The position numbers and the translations under genes are program-made. A DNA stretch of 32,532 nucleotides, from positions 1 through 32,532 of the forward strand of contig JAKURE010000006.1 in NCBI GenBank assembly GCA_022450005.1, in the 5' to 3' direction. The notes below the pieces were generated by a model that worked only from the letters and a program-made list of their open reading frames with translations, was not told the DNA's origin and searched no databases. The first letter of the stretch is position 1, and each line of letters begins with the position of its first letter. Origin of the DNA: Halobacteriales archaeon. Lineage in GTDB: Archaea; Halobacteriota; Halobacteria; Halobacteriales; Hikarchaeaceae. This document shows positions 17,097-29,170 of the stretch, piece after piece.

Positions 17097-17211
17097 GCCC
17101 CGATGGCTTAGAGGTTATAGCGCCACACTCATAGGGACAAAGAGAATGTAATCTTTCATTCTCGTGGTCTGGGACATGTGGAGGTCGCTGGTTCGACTCC
17201 GGCTCGGGGCA
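17097..17211 (+). tRNA. tRNA-Met(CAT), elongator type, with a 42-nt intron at 17134-17175 (position 37/38)
   Basis: Acceptor GCCCCGA/TCGGGGC; anticodon stem CCACA/TGTGG; loop CTCATA|A; T-arm GCTGG-TTCGACT-CCGGC; intron carries a GAGAATG...CATTCTC hairpin. Confidence 0.93.
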
Positions 17212-23324: not shown

Positions 23325-24674
23325 ATGGTACAGTTCGATAACATACTAGCCAGCGTTAGAGAACAAGTAGTACCAACTTCTTCAGAAAGAAAAAAGCTCG
23401 ACGAAGCCACCAAAGAACTACAAATACTCTCTCGAGAAGCAACATCCAATCTCCCTTTCAAAACACATACGCTTCACCTAGGGAGTACTTCTCGCGATAC
23501 TTGGTTGCGTGGAGATGTTGATATTGATATTTTTATTCAATTCCCCCGATCCACTTCCAAACAAGATTTAGAGAAATATGGCCTTGAAATTGGACACAAA
23601 ATTCTACCGGATGGACATGAAGAATATGCAGATCATCCCTATGTGAAAGGTACATTTCACGGTTTTAAAATAGATATAGTCCCCTGCTACGCTGCAACAT
23701 CTGCCATTGATCTCATATCTGCGGTGGATAGGACTCCTCTCCATGGGGCATATCTATCAGGCCAACTAACTGAAGAACTTTCCACCGAGATTAGACTTCT
23801 TAAACAATTCTTCAAGGGGTGCGGCGTCTATGGATCCGATCTCAAGACTCAAGGGGCATCTGGCTATCTGTCCGAGCTTCTCATAATCTTATTTGGGAGC
23901 TTTACAAACACCGTCAAAGAGATGTCAAAATGGATTGTTCCCATACGATTAGACCCAAATGGCACAAGTGAACATTTTTTTGAATCGCCTCTCACCTTCA
24001 TAGATCCTATAGACCCATCTAGAAACGTTGCTGCTGCTCTTTCCTCCACCAATCTATCTCTAATCCAACATTATTCCCGCGAGCTTTTATCTCGTCCAAG
24101 AATAGAACTATTCTATCCGCACTCTATGGAACCAATTACAAACGAGGAGTTACAGGCCCATATAGCCAATAGGGGCACTTCCCCCATTGCCATCCTTTTC
24201 CCCACTCCTAATATAGTCGAAGACGAACTGCACCCCCAATTGCAGAAATCTCTATCGGGGATAGCAGACTTGTTGACTCGACACGGTTTCAATATAATCC
24301 GATGCGACGCATTCTCGGAATCTAATTCCATCTTCTTCTTCGAACTATCGTCAATTGAAATACCTTCTATAGAACATCATGATGGACCCCCTCTTAGTTC
24401 TCAACCACATGCATCTGCATTTTTAGATAAATACACCAAAACCGATGTGTACGGCCCATTCATCGACAACGATCATTATGTAGTCGAGCGATTCCGGGAG
24501 TTTGATAATGCCATATCCTTCTTAAAAAGTGAAGTAATTTTCACCGCACGAATTGGTCCTGACATAGGAGATTCCCTCAAAAATCACTACGATGTTCTAT
24601 CCGAATCTGAACTTTTAACTTTAACACCCGAATTTGGAATCCACTTGCACAACCATTTCAACCCAACATTGTGA
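23325..24674 (+). CDS. cca: Archaeal CCA-adding enzyme
   Basis: LHLGSTSRDTWLRGDVDIDIFIQFP nucleotidyltransferase motif; FHGFKIDIVPCY; LLKQFFKGCGVYGSDLKTQGASGYLSELLII. Confidence 0.96.
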   Translation: MVQFDNILASVREQVVPTSSERKKLDEATKELQILSREATSNLPFKTHTLHLGSTSRDTWLRGDVDIDIFIQFPRSTSKQDLEKYGLEIGHKILPDGHEEYADHPYVKGTFHGFKIDIVPCYAATSAIDLISAVDRTPLHGAYLSGQLTEELSTEIRLLKQFFKGCGVYGSDLKTQGASGYLSELLIILFGSFTNTVKEMSKWIVPIRLDPNGTSEHFFESPLTFIDPIDPSRNVAAALSSTNLSLIQHYSRELLSRPRIELFYPHSMEPITNEELQAHIANRGTSPIAILFPTPNIVEDELHPQLQKSLSGIADLLTRHGFNIIRCDAFSESNSIFFFELSSIEIPSIEHHDGPPLSSQPHASAFLDKYTKTDVYGPFIDNDHYVVERFREFDNAISFLKSEVIFTARIGPDIGDSLKNHYDVLSESELLTLTPEFGIHLHNHFNPTL

Positions 24675-24688
24675 CTCCCACCTCTCTA

Positions 24689-24830
24689 TTATATGTATAA
24701 AATAGTCTAATGGTCATCTGTAGATGACCGAAGCAGCTCCACCGAAAAGCTGCTTTATCACTGTTATTGAGCCACGCTAATGGATCCTGCCTCGACTGAG
24801 ACAGGGATATGCTAAGTCTTCATAAATAAT
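24689..24830 (+). ncRNA. Candidate small structured RNA between cca and the Cys-rich ORF
   Basis: TATA-like ttatatgtataaaata (24689-24704), then hairpins ggtcatc-tgta-gatgacc, aagcagct...agctgctt and a CCTG-c-CTC-gact-GAG-a-CAGG hairpin; no convincing ORF. Confidence 0.35.
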
Positions 24831-24917
24831 GTATAGTTGGGAGGGAATATAAACTCTATGCTATTTGATATCATATATCACAAAATATATAAACTACCGT
24901 GTGCATCCATATACCCA

Positions 24918-25073
24918 ATGGACTGTGACAATCCCCATTGCCAATGTGATCCCTGCACGTGCGACCCCTGTCTCTGCACGGAAGAAACACCTTGCACGTG
25001 CGGTAAACCTTCCCTACTCGAGCGTATATTCTCCAACATGGAACATGCATCCGATTTACATTATTATGAATAA
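24918..25073 (+). CDS. Cys-rich CxC-type (metallothionein-like) micro-protein 1
   Basis: MDCDNPHCQCDPCTCDPCLCTEETPCTCGKPSLLERIFSNMEHASDLHYYE*; paralogue at 28916 with largely synonymous differences. A TATA-like atatataa sits about 25-30 bp upstream. Confidence 0.85.
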   Translation: MDCDNPHCQCDPCTCDPCLCTEETPCTCGKPSLLERIFSNMEHASDLHYYE

Positions 25074-25080
25074 TTAGTTA

Positions 25081-25515
25081 TTATTCTTCCAAAATTTTCA
25101 CACAAGTCTCTATGTCTTCTTTTTGGATGGTCTTCCTCCCTGCATGACGTGACAGGATCGCGCCCTTTCTTGCTATTTGGTCTGCATAATCTTCTAGATA
25201 TACTGCAAGAATCAATCTCGCATCATTGCCAATTCTATACCGATCATCAATTTCCGATCGCGCAATGCGATCAACAGGGGCAATAGGTAATACTAGCTCT
25301 CTTTCAGAATCTCTTTCTCCAATATCGAAATCTCCTTCCTGGATGGTTTTTCTCCCATTTTCTCTCGCAATTTTAGCAGCCTCAATTGTGAGATTTGCAC
25401 CTTCTATTTGAATCAAACGGGCCAACTCTTCAGTTGCCTCAGAACTCACCCGGAGTGCACCCGAGTTCCTACGAATAATCGTATCTACTGGGGCAAATGG
25501 CAATTCCATACTCAT
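25081..25515 (-). CDS. Doublet archaeal histone (two fused histone folds)
   Basis: LPFAPVDTIIRRNSGALRVSSEATEELARLIQ...AKIARENGRKTIQEGDF, then LPIAPVDRIARSEIDDRYRIGNDARLILAVYLEDYA...HAGRKTIQKEDI. Confidence 0.95.
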   Translation of the reverse strand: MSMELPFAPVDTIIRRNSGALRVSSEATEELARLIQIEGANLTIEAAKIARENGRKTIQEGDFDIGERDSERELVLPIAPVDRIARSEIDDRYRIGNDARLILAVYLEDYADQIARKGAILSRHAGRKTIQKEDIETCVKILEE

Positions 25516-28126: not shown

Positions 28127-28208
28127 ACTGGTGAAAGGTTTATCGCCTCATTTCTGCTAAATCTAGAAACAAAACTCTCTTTACAAAAAATATTGTAGTC
28201 TCTACTCT

Positions 28209-28281
28209 GTCCAATTAGGGTAGTGGACTATCCTACGGGCTTGCGGAGCCTGTGACCGGGGTTCGAATCCCCGATTGGACG
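28209..28281 (+). tRNA. tRNA-Arg(GCG)
   Basis: Acceptor GTCCAAT/ATTGGAC; anticodon arm CGGGC-TTGCGGA-GCCTG; T-arm CCGGG-TTCGAAT-CCCCG. Confidence 0.93.
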
Positions 28282-28373
28282 TCCCTGAGTGTGGTACACA
28301 TACTCCCGATTACCATCTCAAAACAATCAGACTAAGTAAGGACGGTTGCTCCCTTTCGATGAGGATATATAAA

Positions 28374-28640
28374 ATGTCTATTGACCCATCAAAACTCACC
28401 GTCGGTAATCTGTTAAAAGAAATCTCAAATATTGAGGATATCAACGAATTAAAAGAGATCTTATCTGCAGAAACAACAGGAAAAAATCGCAAAGGTGCAC
28501 TGAGCGGAATTCAACAACAGATCGAATCAATTGAAGTTCTTGGCCCCAGTGGAGTTGCCTCTCCAAACCGATATTTGAAACCACTATATTATCTTGTATT
28601 CATACTCCTCGCCGCCTGGGCAATCTCGAATTTCATTTAA
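28374..28640 (+). CDS. Stand-alone EtfA-repeat-like domain with C-terminal TM anchor; start corrected to ATG at 28374
   Basis: MSIDPSKLTVGNLLKEISNIEDINELKEILSAETTGKNRKGALSGIQQQIESIEVLG aligns to the EtfA repeats; C-terminus YYLVFILLAAWAISNFI is hydrophobic. GAGG is upstream. Confidence 0.88.
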   Translation: MSIDPSKLTVGNLLKEISNIEDINELKEILSAETTGKNRKGALSGIQQQIESIEVLGPSGVASPNRYLKPLYYLVFILLAAWAISNFI

Positions 28641-28646
28641 TGATCT

Positions 28647-28853
28647 ATGAAACTAATAGTGGTAAATCAAAATAACCCCGAACGAATCTTTCGAGCAATG
28701 GTCGCACTTATATTTTTAGGTATGGCTGTATTTATGGATCCGGGACTTTTGCGCCTCATTTCCCTCTTCAGTGGACTTGGATTGATGTTTAATGCAATCA
28801 CTGGAACTTGTTTCTTTTACCGATTCCTTGGGTACAGTAGCTGCCCAACCTGA
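28647..28853 (+). CDS. DUF2892/YgaP-TM-like membrane protein
   Basis: NNPERIFRAMVALIFLGMAVFM...LRLISLFSGLGLMFNAITGTCFFYRFLGYSSCP. Confidence 0.8.
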   Translation: MKLIVVNQNNPERIFRAMVALIFLGMAVFMDPGLLRLISLFSGLGLMFNAITGTCFFYRFLGYSSCPT

Positions 28854-28915: not shown

Positions 28916-29017
28916 ATGTGTTGTAATGATACTCCCCATTCCCACTGTTGCCAATGCCACCCATGTACATGCGATCCTTGTCTCTGCACCGAAGAAGATC
29001 CTTGCAGATGCATGTAA
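28916..29017 (+). CDS. Cys-rich CxC-type (metallothionein-like) micro-protein 2 (not in supplied ORF track)
   Basis: MCCNDTPHSHCCQCHPCTCDPCLCTEEDPCRCM*; 33 aa with 11 Cys; core CQCxPCTCDPCLCTEExPCxC shared with 24918-25073. Confidence 0.85.
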   Translation: MCCNDTPHSHCCQCHPCTCDPCLCTEEDPCRCM

Positions 29018-29056: not shown

Positions 29057-29170
29057 ATGACTATTGACCCATCAGACCAATATACAAAAAATCTAGTGAT
29101 TGGCCAAGTAGTACTCTATACCTTATTAGTACTCGCAGCCATTTCTTTCGCTTATTTTTTTATAAATTAA
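29057..29170 (+). CDS. 37-aa single-TM micro-protein (not in supplied ORF track)
   Basis: MTIDPSDQYTKNLVIGQVVLYTLLVLAAISFAYFFIN*; AGGAG upstream; N-terminus matches MSIDPS of 28374 and TIDPK of EtfA. Confidence 0.7.
   Translation: MTIDPSDQYTKNLVIGQVVLYTLLVLAAISFAYFFIN

Follow-up and report, generated by a model that had tools for sequence, protein, structure and literature searches.

A hidden cysteine-rich microprotein of marine archaea, probably metallothionein-like, with apparent relatives in marine viruses

Does a 33-codon reading frame passed over by standard gene calling encode a protein, and what might a peptide do in which 11 of 33 residues are cysteines? The question is raised by positions 28916-29017 (+) of an archaeal contig of 32,532 nucleotides, the whole of which we refer to as the window. 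A preliminary description of this DNA had proposed a CxC microprotein here that the ORF track missed, and the frame is indeed missing from the ORF list with its 60-aa cutoff. Its translation, MCCNDTPHSHCCQCHPCTCDPCLCTEEDPCRCM (ATG to TAA), is identical to the sequence quoted at the time, and contains three histidines besides the 11 cysteines, four CxC pairs and no aromatic residue. The flanking genes are also as described, a DUF2892-like membrane gene on one side and a 37-aa TM peptide on the other, and the paralogue that had been mentioned is found as a second CxC ORF at 24918-25073. We refer to the two copies as microproteins A and B, and to their surroundings as locus A and locus B. Locus A reads as follows:

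28208-28284 (+): tRNA-Arg, upstream of the gene block
28374-28640 (+): 88-aa protein MSIDPSKL..., with a C-terminal TM segment, kept in the synteny block
28647-28853 (+): 68-aa membrane protein, PF11127 YgaP-like_TM (DUF2892), Pfam E 2e-11
28916-29017 (+): CxC microprotein A, 33 aa, 11 Cys; orthologues in two congeners, with synonymous-dominated substitutions
29057-29170 (+): 37-aa TM peptide, AGGAG upstream of its ATG; present in congener G001, absent in G003

Microprotein A begins 62 nt after the YgaP-like_TM gene, the only copy found in this genome, and ends 39 nt before the TM peptide, with which it is plausibly co-transcribed. No Pfam match was obtained for the 88-aa protein, either with the longer ORF of the window or with the G003 orthologue. 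The small proteins at 28374-28640 and 29057-29170 (+) both begin with M(S/T)IDPS and both end in a TM segment, and may be paralogues framing microprotein A.

Several lines of evidence bear on whether the frame is a gene. The pattern CxCxxCxCxxCxC is encoded by two segments of the window, and by none of 150 windows simulated with its trinucleotide composition (second-order Markov), and cysteine-dense patterns of this type occur elsewhere in the window only in the paralogue at 24918-25073. CxC family members are present in all three congeners. The orthologues of both copies retain the core CQC-x-(P/L)-CTCDPCLCT-x3-PC, and at locus A the core frame is free of the frameshifts and stops that had been suggested as a check in relatives, in two of two orthologues. 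Between microprotein A and G003, nine of 12 substitutions in a 19-codon core fall at third positions, and two amino-acid changes are found where 8.4 are expected, for a core that was chosen by its motif, a choice that favours conservation. The whole of ORF B, which was not chosen by motif, has 14 changed residues as against 25.2 expected, a value as low being reached in none of 3000 simulations; it is under purifying selection. A chance ORF was rejected on the simulated windows together with the synonymous-dominated change in the orthologues, and the alternative of an RNA element is not favoured over a protein, since the core substitutions lie at third codon positions and the only Rfam matches in the window are tRNAs. 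Microprotein A is thus a real gene under protein-level selection that standard gene calling skips.

Outside the core the termini drift. Close to its N-terminus, microprotein A carries a short insertion, and the number of cysteines varies among orthologues (11, 8 and 9). The peptide had been described as ending right after the last CxC, which is true of this genome (PCRCM) and specific to it, because the orthologues end differently, G003 in PCNS, lacking the last CxC, and G001 in PCCM. The proposed synteny is likewise kept in part: in both G003 and G001 the TM protein MSIDPSK... and the YgaP-like_TM gene precede the CxC microprotein, and the TM peptide follows in G001, together with a RibD-like gene, and is absent from G003, where an HNH gene and, on the far side, RPA are found. 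Near the G003 copy (L257, contig C52) there is also a MauE/DoxX membrane protein with a cysteine-rich N-terminus, and a cupredoxin; we set this hint of copper aside because the MauE homologue of the window's genome is on a different contig.

The second copy lies in a conserved setting of its own:

23325-24674 (+): CCA-adding enzyme (Pfam), upstream neighbour
24865-24881 (+): candidate operator TTGATATCATATATCAC, palindrome TGATAT-CAT-ATATCA, identical in three species
24886-24893 (+): TATA-like box, centred ~28 nt before the ATG of microprotein B, conserved in congeners
24918-25073 (+): CxC microprotein B, the paralogue (51 aa, 9 Cys), whose C-terminal tail KPSLLERIFSNMEHASDLHYYE is conserved; orthologues in two congeners
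25081-25515 (-): archaeal histone-fold protein, 144 aa (Pfam), downstream neighbour

The order CCA-adding enzyme, CxC microprotein, histone-fold protein recurs in G003 and G002, where the neighbours were named by sequence likeness. The mechanical TTG start at 24837 was rejected for microprotein B in favour of 24918. The palindrome (TGATATCATATATCA) and the TATA-like box are contained in a block of ~40 nt that is identical or nearly so in the three species, and archaeal promoter spacing suggests that the mRNA may be leaderless; such upstream signals would befit a regulated, leaderless archaeal gene. No regulon can be defined for the palindrome, because its exact form was found once in the genome, upstream of microprotein B, and exact copies elsewhere numbered zero.

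Both loci are part of what looks like ordinary chromosome and not a provirus. The window is a contig of a 1.0-Mb genome (71% complete) and contains core genes, namely those for aIF2-alpha, the CCA-adding enzyme, the archaeal histone and an RPA-like OB-fold protein. The four sampled species of the family have genomes of ~1 Mb, as compared with 1.7-4.1 Mb in the 16 other sampled families of the order. Taken with the core genes, this would fit Hikarchaeia, or Marine Group IV, the sister group of Haloarchaea (PMC7599335).

Apparent relatives of the microproteins are found in viruses. A family profile recovered no relative in 297 other genomes of the phylum, and no model in Pfam, NCBIfam or PHROGs matches the microprotein. 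The pattern C-x4-CxCDPCxC is present in at least 120 stretches of IMG/VR; among the matches listed, 86 are standalone short proteins under a strict rule (74 unique), and dozens of the stretches encode the same short protein (MCNNEECKCENCTCDPCECTEENPCGC...). Among these listed matches the viral majority residue equals the archaeal one at ten columns outside the search pattern (C-5, N-3, C+2, T+6, T+13, E+14, E+15, P+17, C+18 and C+20), and agreement at columns that the search did not impose argues for common descent rather than cysteine spacing alone. The archaeal copies carry, in a standalone short ORF, the viral motif C-x-N-x2-C-x-C-x2-C-T-C-D-P-C-x-C-T-x3-P-C-x-C; the cysteine spacing is the same on both sides, and family proteins are 24-51 aa long. 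In a pattern scan of the genome collection, most matches were noise from GC-rich genomes, either antisense or repetitive, and a few looked credible (L023, L104, L110, L111, L034 and L037); of these, L023 and L104 are shorter forms on two marine Chloroflexi/SAR202 contigs. A tblastn search for the short proteins in cultured phages gave no match, a null that carries no information, since cysteine-rich queries can be masked by the low-complexity filter. In the regions of three cultured relatives that were read directly, no CxC copy was seen. The literature searched contained no paper on phage metallothioneins. As judged by sequence, the microprotein belongs to an unnamed family that is common in marine viruses and that a marine archaeal genus has retained. 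The preliminary description was therefore right that a length cutoff hides a family, which is larger than it supposed and whose spread in marine phages, together with the association there with Fe-S assembly genes, it missed; ORF length and low-complexity filters probably account for the absence from Pfam, NCBIfam and PHROGs.

What the peptide does is less direct to read. We consider that the ORF probably encodes a metallothionein-like metal-thiolate microprotein, for which we infer metal binding, cluster formation, the identity of the metal and the role. The CxC pairs, spaced C-x-C-x2-C-x-C-x2-C-x-C-x5-C(-x-C), with invariant Asp-Pro turns and hardly any hydrophobic residues, would permit folding only around soft metal ions, the candidates being Zn(II), Cu(I), Cd(II) and possibly Fe(II). 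The peptide would then buffer metal or hand it on, as a reservoir or a carrier, and the phage copies might serve Fe-S assembly during infection. The core cysteines stay the same between species in spite of codon drift, and the microprotein has the traits of metallothioneins in the broad sense: small size, ~30% cysteine, CxC/CxxC arrays and few aromatics. In the bacterial match L110, a MerR-family regulator stands directly before a 40-aa peptide ending in CKCDPCTCEPCECGPNCCQ, of the CKCDPCTCEPCEC type, an independent case of CxCDPCxCEPCxC. The regulator has a C...HCPIL loop, presumably that expected of thiophilic-metal sensors, and by analogy the pair supports the metal reading. No metal transporter or sensor adjoins the CxC loci in this genome. 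The two copies may share a metal-cluster fold, as the preliminary description suggested; the AlphaFold model, of low confidence and devoid of secondary structure (mean pLDDT 66, pTM 0.26), tests nothing, because a metal-dependent peptide is expected to show no confident fold.

Comparison with known proteins places the microprotein beside, rather than within, the described classes. Like the prokaryotic metallothioneins (PF02069; SmtA, BmtA, PmtA) it is short and cysteine-rich, with CxCxxCxC spacing and no aromatic-rich core; unlike them it has only 24-51 aa in its family, is without the longer second half seen in SmtA-type proteins and does not exceed the gathering score of PF02069 (Metallothio_Pro), whereas a control sequence scored 87.6 bits. 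It resembles the small fungal and eukaryotic metallothioneins such as Neurospora MT (PDB 1m0j), peptides in which 25-30 aa are likewise made up of CxC pairs, but has DP turns and another spacing; the one metal protein to appear among the PDB profile matches was a metallothionein, with an E of 0.8 that is not significant. With the haloarchaeal C(P)xCG zinc-finger mu-proteins (PMC11241148) it shares archaeal origin, a length below 70 aa, richness in cysteine and a tendency to be missed in annotation, but it lacks the C(P)xCG motif and has CxC in place of CxxC pairs. It is a member neither of PF02069 nor of the haloarchaeal C(P)xCG zinc-finger group.

The alternative that survives best, unlikely as we judge it, is a dedicated iron or Fe-S carrier, which would work with IscU and A-type carriers to deliver iron or hold a nascent cluster, the archaeal copies doing likewise with the host SUF/IscU. 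Its appeal comes from the phages. The CxC-bearing viral contigs resemble T4-like Kyanoviridae (marine myoviruses), and several carry the microprotein in the orders IscA-IscA-IscU-CxC, IscA-IscU-CxC, CxC-IscA, CxC-nuclease-IscU or IscU-CxC, with no homology seen between microprotein and IscU or IscA. A CxC ORF lies within 4 kb at 22 of 80 iscU loci and six of 23 iscA loci, as compared with none of 153 control loci (PhoH and DNA polymerase), with the qualification that the iscU query came from a CxC-bearing contig, that the control queries came from one cultured phage without a CxC gene in the regions read, and that related contigs bias the association, the 22 iscU loci holding 11 distinct CxC sequences. 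When the iscU loci closest to the query are dropped, nine of 65 still have a CxC ORF (p ~1e-5); a within-locus position test was weaker (p = 0.024). Host genomes also encode IscU/SufU and SufB. Against a dedicated carrier, many viral copies have no iscU or iscA within 2.5 kb, among them a phage lineage (L166, L173, L236, L254 and relatives) with the order Hsp20, CxC microprotein, M15-type peptidase, DNA polymerase and no nearby iscU. Adjacency to iscU/iscA is observed in part of the viral members and is not seen at the archaeal loci, which are far from Fe-S genes, iscU and SufB of the window's genome being on other contigs. Furthermore, dense CxC spacing, as found in the peptide, typically marks d10-metal clusters and not Fe-S carriers.

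It is conceivable, if somewhat doubtful, that the microprotein is an unrecognised third part of a marine-phage Fe-S assembly set (IscA, IscU, microprotein), carrying iron or cluster metal during infection, and that cellular versions are maintained at two conserved chromosomal loci by the deep-ocean archaea to which the window belongs. Viral iscU and A-type carrier (ATC) genes, the neighbours of the CxC copies in T4-like marine phages, are already known (PMC5332604); the CxC microprotein is not described there, as the word "cysteine" has no occurrence in the main text. Should the link to phage IscU/IscA be functional, the microprotein would add something testable to the question of how an infecting phage copes with scarce iron and other metals.

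We regard as quite improbable a small zinc-finger-type regulator or protein-protein adaptor with structural zinc, akin to the haloarchaeal mu-proteins. Haloarchaea do encode many such cysteine-rich proteins (PMC11241148), and some larger viral proteins bear the CxC motif as a tail or an insert; however, neither copy has a C(P)xCG/CxxCG motif, a hydrophobic core is lacking, the termini vary freely and the 297 other genomes of the phylum hold no relatives. A redox-active thiol peptide or a substrate of peptide modification, such as a precursor peptide, would agree with the high cysteine content and with the low-confidence AlphaFold model lacking secondary structure, but is very improbable given the regular CxC/DP spacing kept across archaea and viruses and neighbours among which no modifying enzyme was recognised. 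The metallothionein-like reading is the one that we retain.

Three further observations concern the viral sequences and the window. The CxCDPCxC motif is attached to unrelated viral proteins as a tail or insert, and six viral proteins of 59-73 aa (L145, L190, L194, L206, L211 and L232) share an N-terminal domain (MIEIYQKRxxWY...) and bear the motif as C-terminal tail, several of them near a terminase-like gene. Upstream of microprotein B, 24700-24830 (+) is a conserved non-coding block with two hairpin-like stretches (GCAGCT...AGCTGC and CCTG...CAGG), a possible small RNA with no Rfam match. At 17097-17211 (+), an Rfam tRNA match (54 bits) extends over 115 bases and was missed by ARAGORN in bacterial mode; it is probably an intron-containing archaeal tRNA.
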